20,848 bases of DNA from a virus, in the IMG/VR virus record IMGVR_UViG_3300020169_000147, positions 1 through 20,848 of that record; one strand, given 5' to 3'. The notes under the pieces are model-generated. The model worked only from the letters and a program-made list of their open reading frames with translations, was not told the DNA's origin and did not search any database. The translations under genes were made by a program, and so were the position numbers. Numbering within the stretch: the first letter of the stretch is position 1; the number at the start of each line of letters is the position of its first letter. Positions 11,465-20,563 of this stretch are shown here, one piece after another.

Positions 11465-12774
11465 TGAGTGTAGCACAACAGAAAAAGTTCTTAACAAAAC
11501 TGCATAAAGAACTATCCGTAGACAGTGAAGACTATAGAAGAAAGACTGCAAATAAAAGAATGCACACTTTCGTAGTGACAAGAAGAGCTATTCGCAGAGG
11601 TATGAAAGACAGGCTAGAGAAAAATTATCCCGATATTTCAAAAGCAACTATAATGAAAATTTTAAAGCAGTCTGATAGATACGTTAGGGCTTTAATTCGA
11701 GAAACTGGAAGAAACGTTATAGGAATGAGCAAAAGAGATGATGGTATTACAATTACTAAGTTTACTCCCTCTAAAATAGAAGCCGCTTTTGAAGCCAGTG
11801 GGAAAGATAGATTTAATCAGATTAAAAGAAGTTATGATAAAAACTGGGGCATTGCCGCAAAAGGAATCAGCGGAGTAGTTAAAAAAGTTTTAGAGGTATC
11901 AGATGCAAACTTAGAAGCAAAATCTTTGTGGAACTTAGAACATAACTACTTAAAAGGTATTATTGAGAGCCAAGTAAAAGATGCTATAGATAATGCTTTA
12001 CTACAAGAAGAGGCTATTTCTCGAGCTTCTGTTCATAACTTTTTTAAAGGAATGGGTATAGAGCTGGATGTAATACGAAACGGAGACACCGGAGTCATGG
12101 AAGTATTTATGGGCTCCCAGAGAGCTAATGCAAAAGAAGGTGGTATAGCAGGAGCTAAAGTGGCTAAGCTAAAGAAGGCTCTGCTAAATGCATTAAGAAC
12201 TTTAGAAAATGGTGGAATACTTAGTGACTTAGATGGATCTGACTCTTTCAAAACAGCAAAAATTAAAAAAGCAAGAAGAGAAGTATTAGAACCTTTTAAG
12301 AAAGTAAAAAATGCAACAGTAACTTCTAAAGATACCAAAGCAAACAATAGCAAAACAAATGTATCAAAGAGTATTGTACAAAAAACCATCATAGGTAAGA
12401 ATGCTTCAAAAAAGAGAACAGTAAGAGCTTCTAAAGCTAAAAAAGCAGGGGCAGCTTCTCAACCCTTACAAATGATAGGACTTATCAATAAAGCACTACC
12501 GGATACCGTAAGAAAGAATATGAGAAGTCCTGCACTTGTAAATAGAACAGGACGATTTGCAGAAAGCGTACAAGTTACTGATATTGTAAAGACACCAAAA
12601 GGCTTTCCTAGTATAGGTTATACTTATCAAAGAAATCCTTATCAAGTATTTGAGGAAGGTAGCTCAGGAAACTGGGCAAACGGAAATAGAGATCCACGAG
12701 ATCTAATTGACAAATCTATTCGAGAGATAGCAGCACAGTTTGCAATCGGAAGATTCTATACCAGGAGAGTATAA
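11464..12774 (+). CDS. Neck / tail-completion protein with long basic linker
   Basis: The 436-residue protein has three parts. The N-terminal 270 residues are basic and mostly helical. A linker (about 275-330) of Lys, Ser, Thr and Asn follows. The C-terminal 100 residues contain LVNRTGRFAESVQVTDI, GFPSIGYTYQRNPYQVFEEG, RDPRDLIDKSIREIA and a basic end (GRFYTRRV); NRTGRF...YxxYxVFEEG...DPRxLIxxSIRxIA resembles the HK97 gp10/tail-completion family. I recall the same two-part protein in uncultured marine phages. Its place between adaptor and tail terminator fits a head-closure or neck role. It is about three times longer than ordinary gp10 proteins, so two functions may be joined. Codon use is richer in AGA and ATA than the capsid gene. 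Confidence 0.7.
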   Translation: MSVAQQKKFLTKLHKELSVDSEDYRRKTANKRMHTFVVTRRAIRRGMKDRLEKNYPDISKATIMKILKQSDRYVRALIRETGRNVIGMSKRDDGITITKFTPSKIEAAFEASGKDRFNQIKRSYDKNWGIAAKGISGVVKKVLEVSDANLEAKSLWNLEHNYLKGIIESQVKDAIDNALLQEEAISRASVHNFFKGMGIELDVIRNGDTGVMEVFMGSQRANAKEGGIAGAKVAKLKKALLNALRTLENGGILSDLDGSDSFKTAKIKKARREVLEPFKKVKNATVTSKDTKANNSKTNVSKSIVQKTIIGKNASKKRTVRASKAKKAGAASQPLQMIGLINKALPDTVRKNMRSPALVNRTGRFAESVQVTDIVKTPKGFPSIGYTYQRNPYQVFEEGSSGNWANGNRDPRDLIDKSIREIAAQFAIGRFYTRRV

Positions 12775-13223
12775 TGAGCAGAGCATATACAACACGACGT
12801 TTAGGCATTGTAAATGCTATTGTTGAAAAGCTCAAAGACATAGACGGGTCAGGAACTTTTTTAAGTGATTTAAATGAAAATGTTTCTCCTCGATTAAAGT
12901 TTTGGGATGAAGTGGAGGAATTTCCTGCAGTTCACCTAAATGCCGGTTCTGAGACAAGAGAGTATCAGGGTGCTGGATATAAAGACAGATTTCTTTCTAT
13001 TACATTAAGATGTTACGTACAAGCAGAAGACTCAGTAGAAGCATTAGATGAGCTTATGGAAGACGTAGAAACTATATTGGAAGATAGCTCTCGATTAGCG
13101 TATTTGGATCGTACAGGTACGACTCAATACACACAACAAATCACAATCGTTAGTATTGATACTGATGAAGGTGTACTTGAACCCTTAGGCGTTGGAGAAA
13201 TGCTAATAGAGGTTCGATACTAG
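12774..13223 (+). CDS. Tail terminator protein
   Basis: The 149-residue alpha/beta protein has the pattern of tail terminators (lambda gpU / DUF3168-like): an N-terminal helix (RRLGIVNAIVEKLKDIDG), FPAVHLNAGSETREYQGAGYKDRFLSITLRCYVQAEDSVEALDELMEDVETIL in the middle with alternating strands and a long helix, then a final beta part ending in MLIEVRY. Such proteins cap the tube and bind the neck. Position directly before the tail tube gene is usual. Coupled to the previous gene by TAATG. The 63 bases after it hold only a ribosome binding site and no clear hairpin. Confidence 0.78.
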   Translation: MSRAYTTRRLGIVNAIVEKLKDIDGSGTFLSDLNENVSPRLKFWDEVEEFPAVHLNAGSETREYQGAGYKDRFLSITLRCYVQAEDSVEALDELMEDVETILEDSSRLAYLDRTGTTQYTQQITIVSIDTDEGVLEPLGVGEMLIEVRY

Positions 13224-13286: not shown

Positions 13287-14462
13287 ATGGCTGATACATT
13301 ATTTTTTAGCAGAGACACCAAAGTCTACGTCGCACCCTTGAATGCCTCAGGTGCAGAAGTAGCCGGTGCAATTTGGGAGATTCCAGTTTTGGATGGTTTC
13401 TCTTTTTCACAAGCAACAAACAGTTCAGAGATTACTTTGAACGAAATGGAAGCATCAGGTGGCGGAAGCCGTCGTGGTCGCAAGATGTTTAACGACTCTT
13501 ATGCTCCTGCAGAGTGGAGTTTTTCTACTTATGCACGACCCTTTAAGTCTGCAGCTTACGCAGCAGGTGGAGCAGACAACCAAGTCGCGCATCACGCTGT
13601 AGAAGAAGCACTCTGGGCTATGATGGTTGGTAACGCAGGTGCAGGATATACCGTACCTAGTGCCAGTCAAGTATCTGTATGGGCTCAAGGCCTTACACAA
13701 GATGGTACAGATTTAGAGATTGACTTTGATGACTCTAACACTTCTACTTTGGGTACTGCAAACATTTACTTTGTACTTGGTAAAACAGGTGAAACCGCAA
13801 CTACCTACAAGATTGCAAATTGCTGTATGAACGAAGCGTCTATTGATTTTGACATTGATGGCATCGCTACTATTGCATGGTCTGGAATGGGCACTATTAT
13901 TACTGAAGCATCTGCTCCAACTGCGACTCGTTATGAAGCAATCACTTCTACTACTAACTTTATTCGTAACCGTCTTACTCAACTTGTTATGACTACTGCT
14001 GATGATCACTTGTTATCAAGTGGCGAAAGTGCTGATGGCGATTCAGATGCAGAAACTTATAATATGACTCTGACCGGTGGTAATATTACTATTTCTAATA
14101 ACATGACATTCTTAACCCCCGAAACTCTCGGTGTAGTTAACCAGCCTTTGGGCCATGTAACTGGAACTCGTACTGTTGGCGGAAGCTTTACTTGCTACTT
14201 AAATTCAGCTACTGATTCTAGCATGGATCTGTTTGAGCGTATCATTGAAGATACCGACACTATTACTAATAAGTTTGATCTTAACTTTAAAGTTGGTGGC
14301 GCAAGTGCTACTCCCCGTATTGAATTCAACATGGCAGCTTGTCACTTAGAAGTACCAACTCACTCTATTGATGACGTAATCTCCTTGGAAGTGAATTTCC
14401 ATGCCTTGGGTACAGACATCAGTTCTACCAATGAACTTGGAATCAAGTACATAGGTGCGTAA
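13287..14462 (+). CDS. Major tail tube protein
   Basis: The 391-residue, acidic, beta-rich protein has no signal peptide and begins with MADTLFFSRDTKVYVAP, typical of tube proteins. It seems to hold two tube-like folds: an N-terminal one with FSFSQATNSSEITLNEMEASGG and a C-terminal one with TYNMTLTGGNITISNNMTFLTPETLGVVN, TVGGSFTCYL and a closing ISLEVNFHALG. Two folds in one chain would make a trimer ring equivalent to a hexamer, as in T5 pb6. AGGAG at 13275-13279 gives a strong start, and codon use is like that of the capsid gene, in keeping with high expression. The gene is followed by promoter P3 and a terminator. Confidence 0.85.
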   Translation: MADTLFFSRDTKVYVAPLNASGAEVAGAIWEIPVLDGFSFSQATNSSEITLNEMEASGGGSRRGRKMFNDSYAPAEWSFSTYARPFKSAAYAAGGADNQVAHHAVEEALWAMMVGNAGAGYTVPSASQVSVWAQGLTQDGTDLEIDFDDSNTSTLGTANIYFVLGKTGETATTYKIANCCMNEASIDFDIDGIATIAWSGMGTIITEASAPTATRYEAITSTTNFIRNRLTQLVMTTADDHLLSSGESADGDSDAETYNMTLTGGNITISNNMTFLTPETLGVVNQPLGHVTGTRTVGGSFTCYLNSATDSSMDLFERIIEDTDTITNKFDLNFKVGGASATPRIEFNMAACHLEVPTHSIDDVISLEVNFHALGTDISSTNELGIKYIGA

Positions 14463-14471
14463 AAAAAGTTC

Positions 14472-14507
14472 TTGACATAGGAGGTCATTTCGACTATACT
14501 ATGAAAT
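14472..14507 (+). promoter_or_regulatory. Promoter P3, sigma70-type, just before a terminator
   Basis: TTGACA (14472-14477), 17-base spacer and TATACT (14495-14500, one mismatch to consensus). Expected start near 14507, only about 13 bases before the terminator stem at 14520. RNA from this promoter would end after about 40 bases unless the terminator is passed. Confidence 0.75.
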
Positions 14508-14519
14508 AGAAAAAGTTAG

Positions 14520-14545
14520 AAGGGGCTCTTTTTCGAGCCCCTTTT
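14520..14545 (+). terminator. Strong Rho-independent terminator after the tail tube gene
   Basis: AAGGGGCTC (14520-14528) pairs perfectly with GAGCCCCTT (14535-14543) around TTTTTC, followed by a T run to 14545. It sits between the tail tube and the next tail gene and downstream of P3. Confidence 0.85.
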
Positions 14546-14560
14546 ATTATCCGGAGAAAA

Positions 14561-16072
14561 ATGGCTACTTATAATTTTTTAAAACAGGCAGAAGTTTATC
14601 TTTCAACAACTTACCCTGTTGAAAGTGGCATGACTGTATCTGAAACTTTGGCTCCGAATACTTCAAAAGCTAATAGTGGCGCTTTTTCAGGGGCAAATGA
14701 GCACCTAAAAACATTATTTGCCGGAGAAGTAGTTTTACCTTCTACGTTCTCAAATGATCATGAAGTTATTTTTGAACACGGTGGAACAGGATATGGTACT
14801 TGGATAGGTCAAACTCTTATTTCTGGTACTAGATTTTTAATGCTTAGAGTAGGAACTGGAACACTAAATACTGAAGTTAGTAATAATGAAAGAGTTTATA
14901 AGCGAATTCCTATAGAAGATATTCCGGAGTTCGATGATAAGATGCATACAGTTGCATGGGAGTACGATCCCCCAAACGGAACAGCTAAGCTCTGGATAGA
15001 TAATCGACTTGTAATTAGCGAAGTCTGTACCGACGGTTCTTATAATCAGTGGACAGGCGGTAATGAAGGAGGATGGTTAGAAGGCTTTTTAGCAGTCGCA
15101 GGACAGGGTAGTGTAGGTGCACACAGAACACCGTGGTCAGGACAAGCAGGCTCCGATTTAAGAATTTATACTAATCAAACTATTGGTAATAATAATTACC
15201 CTTTAAGATTAGATGTTACTTCAGACATAAACTTTAGTCAAACTTTTACGGATAAAACATATCCTCAAAAGACGTTACATGATCAGAGCAAGATGCATGA
15301 GGCTTCTAGTATTACAAAAGCTAATCCTGCTAATTTTGAATTTACAGTACCGGCTCTTACAGAAAATGACTTATCAGTAGTTAAAGATTTATTAGTAGAT
15401 TATAAATCAGGTACAAATACATTAAATACATTTACGTTACATATAAAATTACCAAATGATAACTATAGACTAGATAACTGCGTTGCAACAAATGGGGCAT
15501 TCTTAATTGAGAAATTACAGGACCTCAAGTTGACAATAACAGGCGAAGCCTCTAGATTATCGAAAGGAGTATCCCTACCTACTACAGGCAGGATCTCCCG
15601 TTCAGCAAATCGTACGCACCAGCGTATTGATTATCTGTCGGTATCAGTAGACTCCACTTCTCTCACGGAAGGGATCTACGAAGTTTCCGCGGAGTTACAG
15701 AATGAGATAGAGTGGACTCCCTATGAAACTGTCAACGATGCATTGAATGTGACAAATGCTGCCACCTCAATGTACCCCTCTAGTTTCACACTAAAGAAAC
15801 GAATTCTTTCAGGTTCAATTGGACAGTATGTACTTAGCAACTTTAACAGTCATACTCAACAGTGGAAGACTGGAGTTCCAATCGTAATTAAAGCAGGAAA
15901 AAGTGCAACGCAAGGTTTTCAATTCAATCTATTAAATTGTACCTTTACAAATAGAAACAAAGTTGCAGATGTTTTTACTCAAGCGTATGACTGGAAAATG
16001 AATGACAACCCCACGGATCTAGGTGATAATACAGACACTAATAGATCATTTATAACATTTAACAACATATAA
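14561..16072 (+). CDS. Tube-like minor tail protein with inserted LamG/concanavalin-like lectin domain
   Basis: The 503-residue protein starts MATYNFLKQAEVYLS, like a tail tube strand, which seems to continue only at YPLRLDVTSDINFSQTF (about 213-229). Between them, residues about 16-211 form a LamG/concanavalin-type lectin domain: EVIFEHGGTGYGTWIGQ (68-84), HTVAWEYDPPNGTAKLWIDN (129-148), VAGQG (179-183) and the closing SDLRIYTNQ (198-206). The tube part continues with ITKANPANFEFTVPAL and LTITGEASRLSKGV, and a second beta domain follows to the end (about 350-503), so it may again be two tube folds. GGAG at 14553-14556 sets the start. It lies between tail tube and chaperones, so it is probably a minor tube or tail-tip-proximal ring that displays sugar-binding domains. 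Confidence 0.75.
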   Translation: MATYNFLKQAEVYLSTTYPVESGMTVSETLAPNTSKANSGAFSGANEHLKTLFAGEVVLPSTFSNDHEVIFEHGGTGYGTWIGQTLISGTRFLMLRVGTGTLNTEVSNNERVYKRIPIEDIPEFDDKMHTVAWEYDPPNGTAKLWIDNRLVISEVCTDGSYNQWTGGNEGGWLEGFLAVAGQGSVGAHRTPWSGQAGSDLRIYTNQTIGNNNYPLRLDVTSDINFSQTFTDKTYPQKTLHDQSKMHEASSITKANPANFEFTVPALTENDLSVVKDLLVDYKSGTNTLNTFTLHIKLPNDNYRLDNCVATNGAFLIEKLQDLKLTITGEASRLSKGVSLPTTGRISRSANRTHQRIDYLSVSVDSTSLTEGIYEVSAELQNEIEWTPYETVNDALNVTNAATSMYPSSFTLKKRILSGSIGQYVLSNFNSHTQQWKTGVPIVIKAGKSATQGFQFNLLNCTFTNRNKVADVFTQAYDWKMNDNPTDLGDNTDTNRSFITFNNI

Positions 16073-16078
16073 GGAACA

Positions 16079-16534
16079 ATGATGGACTTAAAAAAATTAA
16101 TGGTTGATACCAAAGCAGTTTGGGTTGACTTTCCCGGTCTTAAAGGCTTTGAGGTAGAGGTAGCAAATCTCTCAAGAAAAGAACTTAACGGACTTCGTAA
16201 GAAGTGTACTACTACTAAGTTTGATCGTAAAACGCGTCAAGCAGTAGAAGAGCTAGATGAAGAAAAGTTTGTTACAGAGTTTACACGTTCTGTAATTAAG
16301 AATTGGAAAGGGCTTGCACTTGAGCATCTTGAAACACTACTACTCGTAGATATATCCGATCAAGACCCTAAAAAAGAGCTAGAGTACTCTGAAGAAAACG
16401 CAGAAACTTTGGTATCGTCTTCGACTGAATTTGATACTTGGCTCAATGAGGTAGTCTTTGATCTTGATAACTTTCGTACAGGATCAAAAGACCCAGTTGC
16501 TAAACCGGCTGGAAAAGTACTTCAAGAACAGTGA
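16079..16534 (+). CDS. Tail assembly chaperone (G-like)
   Basis: The 151-residue acidic protein lies between the tube proteins and the tape measure, the usual place of the lambda G-type chaperone. It has an N-terminal beta part (VWVDFPGLKGFEVEVANLSRKELNGLRKKC, with phage-chaperone-like 'WVDFPG...FEV.V..LSR.EL..L'), a central helical part (TRSVIKNWKGLALEHLETLL) and an acidic C-terminus. Such chaperones bind the tape measure and recruit tube subunits but are not in the virion. Its end overlaps an open frame that continues to the second chaperone, so a frameshift product is possible. Confidence 0.78.
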   Translation: MMDLKKLMVDTKAVWVDFPGLKGFEVEVANLSRKELNGLRKKCTTTKFDRKTRQAVEELDEEKFVTEFTRSVIKNWKGLALEHLETLLLVDISDQDPKKELEYSEENAETLVSSSTEFDTWLNEVVFDLDNFRTGSKDPVAKPAGKVLQEQ

Positions 16535-16541
16535 GTCAAAA

Positions 16542-16862
16542 ATGACGCGAGAGCGTTATTTTAAGATGTGTGAGCAACTGGGGCAAGAGCCCAATCTCGA
16601 GGAAATACCTCCAGATATAGAGGATTTTCCAGAAATAGCAGTACAGGCAATGAGTACTTTTAGTAGTTTAGGAGATAGAGTTTTCCCAGATATAGGATAT
16701 ATGGGAAAAGACTTTACAACACTGCCTTACTATTTAGAAATGTATGACATAGAGGACAATGAATTGTTCTTAGAACTACTGACTTATTTAGAGTCAAGGG
16801 CTATCAAAACTTCCCAAGATCAACTTAAACGGGAAAGGGAGAAGCTAAAGAGAAAGAAATAG
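16542..16862 (+). CDS. Second tail assembly chaperone frame (T-like)
   Basis: From the ATG at 16542 the product has 106 residues: MTRERYFKMCEQLGQEPNL, an acidic PPDIEDFPEIAVQAMSTF stretch, GDRVFPDIGYMGKDF, and a basic, helical end (LKREREKLKRKK). I recall this ORF in marine phages directly before the tape measure. The frame is open back to 16455, within the G-like gene, in the +1 (or -2) phase, so it could be reached by a frameshift; the ATG itself has only a GAG at about 16534 for a ribosome binding site. Either way it belongs to the tail chaperone pair that handles the tape measure. Its stop overlaps the tape measure GTG by one base. Confidence 0.72.
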   Translation: MTRERYFKMCEQLGQEPNLEEIPPDIEDFPEIAVQAMSTFSSLGDRVFPDIGYMGKDFTTLPYYLEMYDIEDNELFLELLTYLESRAIKTSQDQLKREREKLKRKK

Positions 16863-19800
16863 TGGCAGACACAATAACAGTCAAGTTTAAAGTCATGGAA
16901 GACGGTAGCTTAAAAGCTATTGGTAAGGATGCCGATAAAGCATCCGCTGCTCTTAACCAGGCTGGTAATACTGCCGATAATTTCAAAAAGAAGCAAAAAG
17001 GAGTAGCAGGAGCCACTTCTAACGGTACTAAAGCTTTCTCAAAAATGACTACAGGCATACAAGGAGGTCTCGTACCTGCGTATGCCGAAATCGCCGCTAG
17101 GGTATTTGCTCTTACAGCGGCTTTCGGGGTTCTTTCTCGGAATAATGCAATCGCAAAACTACAAGAAGGTATCGAGTTCACCGGTAGAGCCGCAGGACGA
17201 AATCTTACTTTTGTAGCAGACAAACTTCAAGAAATCACAGATAACGCCATTTCAGCAGAAGCCGCTATGCGAGCTACTGCTGTAGGTGTGTCGGCAGGAT
17301 TTAGTGAAAGTCAAATGGCAGGTCTTGCCGAAGTAGCAAAAGGAGCTTCTCTCGCACTAGGTAGAGATATGGCTGATGCTATGGATCGACTTATACGAGG
17401 TGCTGCAAAACTTGAACCAGAAATTCTTGATGAATTGGGTATCATGGTACGCCTTGATGAGGCTACAGAAAACTATGCTCGTACTCTAAATAAAAATGTA
17501 AACGAGCTTACTCAGTTTGAAAGACGTATGGCTTTCACAAATGCAATCATCGAACAAGGCAGACAAAAGTTTGACGGTATTTCTGCGTCAATCGAAGCCA
17601 GTCCCTTTTCTAAGTTAGCCGCCTCTTTGCAAGACGTAGCAAAAACAGGTATTGGAGCACTTAACAAAGTCCTAGGCCCAATGGCTAACTTCTTAGCAGA
17701 AAACACTTTTGCACTGGGAGCACTTGTTGCTCTTTATGCGGGTTCTGTAGCAGGTACAATCATGGGAGGTATTACCTCTATGGCAGCTGCTTCTGCAAGT
17801 GCTGCTGTACGAACAGAAGCTCAGTCTAAAGCTGCTTTAAAAGCTATTAAGCCTCACGCTCTTCTGAATAAAAGATTTAATGATTTAGCGGCTTCTGGAA
17901 AGAGGGGTGGAGTAGCTCTTAAAAACATGCACACTGCTCTTAATAATACTATTAAAGCGCACAATGTTGGTACTGCTAAATTAAAGGCTGCTGTAAAAAT
18001 GCGTAATCAGCTAACAGCGGAAATTTACAGACAAAATCTTGCTCAAGTCAAGACAAACATGACCAATGCTTTAGGAATTCTTCAAGAGCAAGGTCTTATG
18101 GCAGGTATACGTGCTCACACGGCCGCGCTAAGAGAACTTGGTCTTGCGACACGAACGACTATGGCATCTCAAAGCGGACTGTATGCTATTATGACAGCAG
18201 GTAAGGGCGTAATGCTTGCTTTGGGCTCTTCAGCAAGATTCTTGGGAGCATCTTTATTGGCTATCATGCCTTATGTCGGTATTGTTCTAGCCGCCGTTTC
18301 TATACTAGGCCCTCTGGTCGGAAAACTTTTTGGAATGGAAGACACCCGTTTAGAAAAACAAATAAAGAAAAATACGGAAAGATTCGAAGAGTTTGATAAG
18401 GTACTAGAACAATATACCCAAACTATAAACAAGTCTGCAACCCAGACTCAACTTTGGGCAAAAACTTTAAAACCAATTGCAGGACTTCTTACTGAAACTG
18501 CTCAAGCCATGCATGAGACTATTGCCGCAGCTCAAACAGAGCAACTGCTAAAACACGTTGCTGCCACGAAAAAGCTTGCTCAGGCACAAACCACCCTTGC
18601 CGCTGCCACGGGAGATGGAATGGCAGGTATCTATTATCGTGGAAAAACTCATGATACCAACGAGATGAAGGATGATGTAAAAGACGCAGAAAAACTTGTA
18701 CAAGAGACAAGCGGAAAAATGTCGGCTGCTGTTGAAGAAATGGTTACTAAAGACTTAATAAGAGGTATGTCTAAATTTTTATCGACATCGGATGCTATGG
18801 CAACTAGACTAGAGCAGTTAGGAAAAGAAGGTAAGCCCGTTGCAGATGCTTTGAACGCGGTTAAAGCGTCCCAAGCAGGAGTGAATGACGTTCTTCAGAA
18901 GATGCTCGCAGGAAAAATGACACCACAAGAAGCCGCTACTCAAATGACAGCACTAGCTACTAGTGCGACTGCGAGTGTTCAGGCTTTTGAAAATTTCAAT
19001 GACATAGTAAACAAAGCAAAAGATTTAGTAGGAGATATAACTTCTACGTGGGGATTGTACGGAAAAGAAATTGACAACGTAGCTGAAGCCGTTATTAATG
19101 TTGAAAAAATACTAAATGATGGTAAAGGTAGTGCCGCTTCAAAAGAAAAAGCCAATGCAATATTAAAAGCATATGGAATAGATGAAGGAGGCGATGCAGT
19201 AGGCAAGCTAAAAGCGTTAGAGGCTCAACTTAAAAAGATAAATGATGCCAATAAAAGATACGGTCAAGAGCAGAGAGTTTTGGACTACGATATGGCCGCA
19301 GGAGCTATATCACAGCTTGAACTAAACAAGACAGCCCTTGATTTAACAGATAGAAGGTTACAGACTGTAGAAGACGAAATTCGTTTGGCGATACCTGGTT
19401 CTCAAAAAATGAATGAACTACAGGAGAAGCGTAATCAGCTTCTAATACAAGAAGTTGATCTTATAAAGAAAAAGTATGATCTTTTATCTGGAGATGCAGA
19501 ATCTTCTGGAATGGGTAAAGCCGCAAGTGCCGCCATTGCAGGTCAAGCTAGTATTACAAATGCCAGCACTAAAGAGGAGGCAGACGGAGCAAGAGCACAG
19601 GTTGCAAAAGACACTTTATCAGGAGTAGCGAGCGATTTGGCAGCTATGGGGCCTGAAGGCGCTCTTATGTCTTCAGCCATTCAAGGCGCTTTAGATATGG
19701 AATCAGCCTTCTCAACTGCATTTGCAGTTATAAATGATGATTCTGCGGATATGTCCACAAAAGTACAGGCAGGTCTCGGAGCAATAGGTGCAACTATATC

Positions 19801-20563
19801 TGCTCTAGGGGCGATGTCCAAAGCAGCAAGCGATCAAAAAATAGCAGGTATAGATAATGAGATTGCGGCAGAAAAAGCAAGAGACGGTAAGTCTGCAGGA
19901 AGTGTAGCAAAACTAGCCGCTCTTGAGAAGAAGAAAGAACAAGCTAAACGAAAAGCTTTTGAGATGGATAAGAAAATGAAAATGGCTCAAACAGTCATTT
20001 CTACCGCTCAAGGTGTAACAGCTATGTTAGGTGCCGCTCCTCCGCCCTTTAACTTCGCACTTGCAGGAATGGTAGCAGCTATGGGTGCTCAACAACTTTC
20101 TATGATTTCTGGAATGACTTTCCAAGGAGGCGCTTCAAGCGCTCCTGCAGCTCCTTCTCAGATAGCAGTAGGCTCACGCAATGCTTCAGTAGATCTGGCT
20201 AAAGGTCAGAACGCAGGCGGAGAACTTGCGTATGCACGAGGAGAGCAAGGTATAGGTTCAGGAATGACAGACTTCAAACCTACTAGTGCATTCGCAGGAT
20301 ATAAGCACCGAGCCGGTGGTGGTTACGTTGTAGGAGAGCAGGGACCAGAGTTGTTCATGCCAGACACACCGGGACAAATTATTCCTTCAGGTCAAGGTAC
20401 CGGAGGACAAACAAACGTAAACTTCTCAATCAATGCAGTAGACTCTGCGGGTGTAGAAGACTTACTAATGAATCAACGAGGAAACATAATCGGAATGATA
20501 CGAGAGGCCGCTAACGAACATGGAGAGTTCTTCCTAGAAAGCGTACAGGATAAATCATACTAA
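16862..20563 (+). CDS. Tail length tape measure protein
   Basis: The 1233-residue protein is by far the longest and directly follows the chaperones. It starts at GTG (overlap TAGTG), then helices rich in Ala and Lys, hydrophobic segments at about 283-312 and 446-489 that may cross the host membrane during DNA injection, long coiled-coil regions (about 495-950), a second helical, Ala/Lys-rich region, and a Gly/Pro-rich C-terminal part with GGGYVVGEQGPELFMPDTPG at about 1152-1171, a motif common to tape measure C-termini. With the rule of about 0.15 nm per residue the tail would be near 180 nm before any trimming. It is not split by frameshift. It ends with TAATG shared with the next gene. Confidence 0.93.
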   Translation: MADTITVKFKVMEDGSLKAIGKDADKASAALNQAGNTADNFKKKQKGVAGATSNGTKAFSKMTTGIQGGLVPAYAEIAARVFALTAAFGVLSRNNAIAKLQEGIEFTGRAAGRNLTFVADKLQEITDNAISAEAAMRATAVGVSAGFSESQMAGLAEVAKGASLALGRDMADAMDRLIRGAAKLEPEILDELGIMVRLDEATENYARTLNKNVNELTQFERRMAFTNAIIEQGRQKFDGISASIEASPFSKLAASLQDVAKTGIGALNKVLGPMANFLAENTFALGALVALYAGSVAGTIMGGITSMAAASASAAVRTEAQSKAALKAIKPHALLNKRFNDLAASGKRGGVALKNMHTALNNTIKAHNVGTAKLKAAVKMRNQLTAEIYRQNLAQVKTNMTNALGILQEQGLMAGIRAHTAALRELGLATRTTMASQSGLYAIMTAGKGVMLALGSSARFLGASLLAIMPYVGIVLAAVSILGPLVGKLFGMEDTRLEKQIKKNTERFEEFDKVLEQYTQTINKSATQTQLWAKTLKPIAGLLTETAQAMHETIAAAQTEQLLKHVAATKKLAQAQTTLAAATGDGMAGIYYRGKTHDTNEMKDDVKDAEKLVQETSGKMSAAVEEMVTKDLIRGMSKFLSTSDAMATRLEQLGKEGKPVADALNAVKASQAGVNDVLQKMLAGKMTPQEAATQMTALATSATASVQAFENFNDIVNKAKDLVGDITSTWGLYGKEIDNVAEAVINVEKILNDGKGSAASKEKANAILKAYGIDEGGDAVGKLKALEAQLKKINDANKRYGQEQRVLDYDMAAGAISQLELNKTALDLTDRRLQTVEDEIRLAIPGSQKMNELQEKRNQLLIQEVDLIKKKYDLLSGDAESSGMGKAASAAIAGQASITNASTKEEADGARAQVAKDTLSGVASDLAAMGPEGALMSSAIQGALDMESAFSTAFAVINDDSADMSTKVQAGLGAIGATISALGAMSKAASDQKIAGIDNEIAAEKARDGKSAGSVAKLAALEKKKEQAKRKAFEMDKKMKMAQTVISTAQGVTAMLGAAPPPFNFALAGMVAAMGAQQLSMISGMTFQGGASSAPAAPSQIAVGSRNASVDLAKGQNAGGELAYARGEQGIGSGMTDFKPTSAFAGYKHRAGGGYVVGEQGPELFMPDTPGQIIPSGQGTGGQTNVNFSINAVDSAGVEDLLMNQRGNIIGMIREAANEHGEFFLESVQDKSY

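Follow-up and report, generated by a model that had tools for sequence, protein, structure and literature searches.

The open reading frame at positions 14561–16072 of the window, the 20,848-nucleotide stretch of DNA from a marine bacterial virus that was analyzed here, encodes a p140-like baseplate tube protein carrying an inserted, predicted jelly-roll domain, a candidate lectin (+ strand; CDS of 503 amino acids plus stop). The protein is homologous to p140, the baseplate tube protein of T5, and an insert of approximately 198 residues splits it at the turn that joins its first two strands. Our preferred reading, which we hold to be probable, is that the virus is a T5-type siphophage whose p140 ring, with a LamG/ConA-like domain in the first hairpin, acts as an auxiliary adhesin, and that this hairpin is an exchange socket.

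The identity of the protein was evaluated using profile searches and a predicted structure. The ORF matched PF23779 (Baseplate_Tube_p140) with E = 3.4e-12 and 46.5 bits versus a curated cut-off of 27. This match spans residues 217–484 of the 503-residue protein and begins at profile position 22; the profile positions absent at its start correspond to residues 1–15 (MATYNFLKQAEVYLS). The protein also matched PHROG 3889, ‘base plate tail tube protein’. A phmmer search of the entire protein against the PDB returned nothing useful. L011, a relative lacking the insert, scored 68 bits against PF23779 with nearly the whole profile covered, and a sequence profile of the window’s insert-less relatives recovered the PDB chain of T5 p140 (E = 7e-5). 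All 298 residues encoded by T5 gene T5.144 align with the PDB chain that bears the name baseplate tube protein p140. When the model of the window protein was compared with known structures using Foldseek, T5 p140 (7qg9_G) ranked first (E = 1e-14, TMt 0.71). The best matches were 7qg9_G, 8hqz_L and 9ioz_A, with p140 of T5 and of DT57C in the lead; other tube proteins came next, followed by LamG/LNS, pentraxin and CBM40 folds. By this comparison, the predicted double tube-domain fold, which is duplicated, is most like p140. The earlier note on this DNA had called the product a tube-like tail protein, a description that holds and that PF23779, PHROG 3889 and Foldseek narrow to the T5 p140 type. 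The isolate p140 genes recovered with an insert-less query were Vibrio phage genes that matched in a single piece, without an insert of the kind described here. Bacterial genomes searched for a hint of the host contained no relative.

The neighboring genes are arranged as in T5. Specifically, the window encodes head completion and neck proteins, a tail terminator (12774–13223; PF23818, E = 8e-31), the major tail tube protein (13287–14462; PHROG 3575, E = 1e-54, and PF18906), p140, two tail assembly chaperones (16079–16534, PHROG 313; 16458–16862, PHROG 3914) and the tape measure protein (16862–20563; PHROG 3779, E = 9e-83), with every feature from the terminator onward on the + strand. The order from terminator through tape measure agrees with that of Vibrio phage phi 3 as well as T5. 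The second chaperone ORF overlaps the first in a different frame, like programmed-frameshift pairs. The tube and p140 genes are separated by a 98-bp spacer (14463–14560, + strand) that contains a near-consensus sigma70-like promoter (14472–14500; TTGACA-17-TATACT) and, directly after it, a strong GC hairpin with a T-run (14520–14546). Together, the promoter and hairpin possibly determine how much p140 is made in relation to the tube protein. Elsewhere in the window, positions 367–1235 encode two small proteins with signal-peptide-like starts and no Pfam match, the first of which weakly matched PHROG 25895. On the contig of one relative, G002, a separate 248-residue protein follows the tape measure, where Dit is expected. 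Three loci (L034, L174 and L186) carry tandem pairs of p140 homologues, suggesting duplicated baseplate rings.

The boundaries of the insert were located using relatives with an empty site. The first tube strand or strands, residues 1–15 (14561–14605, + strand), align with the N-terminus of insert-less relatives and also with residues 3–14 of T5 p140. The inserted domain, termed LamG-A, comprises residues 16–213 (14606–15199, + strand); it is absent from L011–L032, among others, and is separate in the model. The rest of the double tube domain, residues 214–503 (15200–16069, + strand), includes the PF23779 match and the tube-fold matches. Across the tube parts, the window protein and that of L011 are 83% identical. 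In L011, the sequence is MATYNILKQAEVYL-VFNSSR-YRLDVTSDLSFSQTFTDKTYPQKTLHDQSKMHEASS, that is, a 6-residue turn takes the place of the insert. Its N-terminus runs from MATYNILKQAEVYL through VFNSSR into YRLDVTSDLSFSQTF uninterrupted, and the same is true of many other loci. A scan of IMG/VR for relatives gave 54 loci, about ten with the insert; a LamG-A-type insert occupies the first hairpin in ten or more loci. When a profile of the insert-less family was compared with all ORFs, the match to the p140 of carriers broke near profile position 15–20 and resumed some 200 residues on. On T5 p140, the insertion point is by alignment the turn at about residues 14–19. The earlier note had proposed a tube strand that is interrupted and resumes after about 196 residues, the insert being residues 16–211. 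The empty-site relatives, for which it had suggested a search, agree with this proposal and move the boundaries to 16–213.

AlphaFold2, run on an alignment of 37 homologues, produced a model with a pLDDT of 77.6 and a pTM of 0.69. It places tube strands at residues 2–6 and 11–17, a beta-rich domain at 28–204, and tube strands again from 215. Thus, as had been anticipated, the insert is predicted to be a separate domain between tube strands and not part of one continuous fold. In Foldseek comparisons, the insert weakly matched LNS/LamG domains of neurexin, pentraxins and CBM40 (E about 1e-3; TMt up to 0.53, for CBM40). Searching 19 LamG-A members against Pfam gave no LamG match, the only hits being weak ones to Polysacc_lyase (0.013) and Neur (0.045), and a LamG-A profile had no real match among PDB sequences. 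In these 19 members, which come from several protein contexts, the T of GLTL, the EHGG region, EFD, HT and WID are invariant or nearly so. Judged from sequence, LamG-A is a family of its own, without a Pfam match. A LamG/ConA-like jelly-roll identity is plausible, as a prediction from weak structural similarity. The earlier assignment of the insert as LamG/concanavalin-like therefore stands in part: the predicted structure contains a beta-rich, putatively jelly-roll domain with weak Foldseek matches, but Pfam does not recognize it as LamG.

LamG-A is not confined to p140. A scan using the domain alone detected it in gpJ-like hub proteins, right after the PF13550 domain, in repeat-rich fibre-like proteins, and as a stand-alone ORF. 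Isolates with LamG-A in GTA-like hub-type proteins include Dinoroseobacter phage R5C, and Rhodobacter phage RcSalem together with relatives of the latter; in Paracoccus phage ParKuw1, the domain is in a short ORF. Its occurrence in hubs and fibre-like proteins makes the distribution adhesin-like. Placement of the domain at one end of homologues, which the earlier note had weighed against an insertion, was encountered in one p140, that of L225 (3095–4609). There, LamG-A is fused to the C-terminus (about residues 303–499 of 505) of a p140 of a different clade rather than placed in its first hairpin, and the insertion in the window is unaffected.

A different insert of about 240–320 residues, LamG-B, occupies the same hairpin in six carriers (L033, L036, L042, L107, L109 and L112), whose p140 proteins lie in a clade distant from that of the window. 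LamG-B matched PF13385 (Laminin_G_3) with E = 3e-17 in L033 and 5e-17 in L036; the domain of L042 matched with E = 4e-5, under the cut-off. For a structure model of L033, p140 was again the best fold match. The LamG-B model also had many matches to neurotoxin binding domains, which are explained by the shared jelly-roll fold alone; there is no sign of a toxin. Comparison of the LamG-A and LamG-B profiles revealed no similarity (hhalign probability 0.2%), leaving unsupported the idea that the two are one ancient, diverged insert. On these profiles, two unrelated domain families fill one turn of p140, and the two may have a common jelly-roll ancestor. In two loci (L231, 5169–8018, and L237, 6721–8580), phages with a hub LamG-A encode a Laminin_G_3 domain resembling LamG-B in the gene that follows, and a single tail thus combines the two families. 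Finally, a segment of the type GSTYKITSVGTTDFTAIGASS..GTTFTATG.GSGTGTA is present in the p140 linker of L050 (about residues 150–205), in the tube protein of G002 (L209, minus strand), and inside the LamG-B of L107. By eye, this segment resembles a second, smaller mobile decoration of tail ring proteins, the L107 copy being only loosely similar.

The history of the inserts was investigated using trees of the tube part only. In a tree of 97 rows, carriers of both insert types were scattered among insert-less relatives. This wider tree required six changes for the two insert types, a count that does not tell gain from loss. In a careful tree of the window’s own clade, the grouping of LamG-A carriers as a single clade was rejected (AU p = 0.000346). 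The trees thus indicate multiple events of gain and loss, or of transfer, of inserts in p140.

Nucleotide comparisons with two relatives bear on how the window acquired its copy. Relative to L003, which carries the insert, the window is 100% identical over the 98-bp spacer and first strand and 89–90% identical over the insert. Outside this cassette, identity is mostly 63–79% upstream and 66–85% from position 15601 on. Overall, identity to L003 is 91% within 14463–15199 versus 74% in the flanks (Fisher p = 4e-27), and dS is 0.44 for the insert versus 1.02 for the tube. Relative to the insert-less L011, identity is mostly 86–100% upstream and about 90% from 15601 on, and the stretch from 15201 to 15600 is mixed. 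The window accordingly looks like a mosaic of an L003-like insert on an L011-like backbone, each at approximately 90% identity. The simplest reading is that an L003-like cassette entered an L011-like backbone via the identical spacer and conserved tube sequence, and the window’s copy looks recently acquired by recombination. The spacer is identical in four loci (L002, L003, L004 and L011) and is therefore a possible foothold for recombination. The dN/dS of the insert was 0.10–0.28 versus four homologues, which shows that it is under purifying selection. In the group of L008, L009 and L200, the values were 0.5–0.7 for the insert and 0.3–0.4 for the tube; purifying selection on the insert is perhaps weaker there.

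Based on these comparisons, the first hairpin of p140 appears to be a socket at which candidate binding domains are acquired, lost or swapped by phages. We give about even chances to a broader version, according to which this hairpin serves marine T5-type phages generally as a socket: jelly-roll binding domains of unrelated families would be swapped there by homologous recombination, the cassettes would be shared with hub, fibre-like and free proteins, and adhesins could be exchanged independently of the tail fibres.

As to function, the insert is most likely an auxiliary, putatively glycan-binding adhesin near the tail tip. The tube fold would close around the insert, such that the ring still assembles, and LamG-A would protrude outward from this ring, which comes next after the last ring of the tail tube. 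In T5, p140 makes up one trimeric ring (PMC10038345); if the stoichiometry is the same here, each virion would carry three copies of LamG-A. The domain may bind a host surface or capsular polysaccharide, adding avidity near the tip, and could slow or orient the virion such that the tip reaches its receptor. Homologous recombination within the conserved flanks would allow p140 genes to acquire, lose and trade cassettes. The earlier note had envisaged sugar-binding domains displayed along the tail or near its tip. One ring near the tip is what would be expected; display along the tail does not fit a single trimeric ring.

The authors of the T5 structure argued that the p140 ring, enclosed as it is by the p132 collar, has to remain free of decoration (PMC10038345). 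Using the C-terminal fragment of T5 p132 and PHROG 15373, we found no p132 homologue in ten related contigs, all of which may be fragments; the PHROG search detected p132 in both controls, T5 and phi 3. If complete genomes truly lack the p132 collar, this would explain why the p140 ring can be decorated here. The same result lends something to an unlikely alternative in which LamG-A is a structural adaptor, either a docking surface for side fibres or a brace for the ring in phages without a p132-like collar. T5 p140 indeed touches the collar (PMC10038345), and ConA-like jelly rolls can be purely structural or act as scaffolds. However, most close relatives lack the insert yet are otherwise syntenic, so it is dispensable for tail building, and the fact that LamG-A also occurs in other tail proteins, and by itself, is more readily explained by a binding module than by a specific dock.

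We regard it as rather improbable that LamG-A is a lectin for environmental glycans, such as those of algal exudates, marine particles or mucus-like gels, which would keep the phage near host-rich surfaces. The insert-bearing related contigs are all IMG/VR metagenome records, the isolate matches are largely marine or water phages, and sugar-binding accessories have been proposed for marine roseophages (PMC10276861). Nevertheless, the position near the tail tip and the occurrence in hub proteins favor contact with the host, as in the adhesin reading. There is very little to recommend the protein as a second tail tube protein, polymerized along the tail such that its domains would cover the tube over its full length: the fold is common to p140 and the tube protein, but a separate tube gene (PHROG 3575) lies upstream in the T5 gene order, and T5 p140 is one trimeric ring (PMC10038345). 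An assembly or gene-fusion artefact, in which a separate lectin gene became fused with a tube gene within a single contig, has nothing but the unusual architecture in its favor and is refuted by independent contigs, as the insert is open in frame in at least 10 loci of different metagenome records and is under purifying selection.

The adhesin reading has precedents in other tail-ring proteins. As shown for evolved Dit, additional sugar-binding domains on a tail ring alter how a phage adsorbs and which hosts it infects. Moving the inserted carbohydrate-binding domain of a lactococcal evolved Dit to other phages restored their ability to infect EPS-positive strains (PMC10688798); lactococcal major tail proteins extended by CBMs are a further functional precedent for host binding (PMC6669499). 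In the literature searched, such domains are described in Dit, tube, neck and hub proteins, but not in p140, for which a need to be bare was argued in T5. Decorated tail-ring proteins are therefore already known. The earlier note knew of no published LamG domain placed in the first hairpin; our search, which covered few subscription papers, likewise brought up no account of a p140 with an inserted domain, or of any tube protein with one in its first hairpin, and within the literature searched the p140 insertion is new. The window and its relatives constitute natural plus/minus pairs for testing what the inserted domain does, and for marine phages that are uncultured, the p140 insert is likely to serve as a marker of their polysaccharide specificity.

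The closest known counterpart of the protein itself is T5 p140 (PF23779; PDB 7QG9, chains G/I), which is similar as a double tube-domain ring protein, in gene position and in predicted fold. In the 298-residue T5 protein, the site is a short turn at about residues 14–19, whereas the window has 198 residues there. Moreover, T5 p140 is described as an undecorated ring within the p132 collar, in contrast to the decorated ring protein of the window. The MTP/TpeX proteins of 936 phages and the Ig-like decorations of lambda gpV and T5 pb6 are similar in placing extra domains on tube-fold rings. Those domains are appended after the tube core, or added by frameshift, and occur over the whole tube; the domain in the window is internal, in the first hairpin, and on one baseplate ring. 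Roseophage R4C and the RcGTA, with several putative sugar-binding domains in the megatron, hub and Dit, are examples from alphaproteobacterial phage and GTA baseplates, and LamG-A itself occurs in related hub proteins (R5C and RcSalem). They differ in that the hosts of the domains are the hub, megatron or Dit, not p140, and in their CBM11-like or OB folds.

The functional counterpart is the evolved Dit of lactococcal skunaviruses, also found in lactobacillus and Bacillus cereus phages: in both cases, an internal carbohydrate-binding insertion, putative in the window, is variably present in a ring protein near the tail tip. As in evolved Dit, the insertion in the window leaves the ring core intact and is missing in relatives, but its host protein is a p140 homologue and not Dit. 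Evolved Dit also differs in its BppA-like CBM fold and its insertion site, and its binding and host-range effects are experimental. By analogy, p140 with LamG-A most likely works like evolved Dit in a different ring: the same idea, but not the same family.
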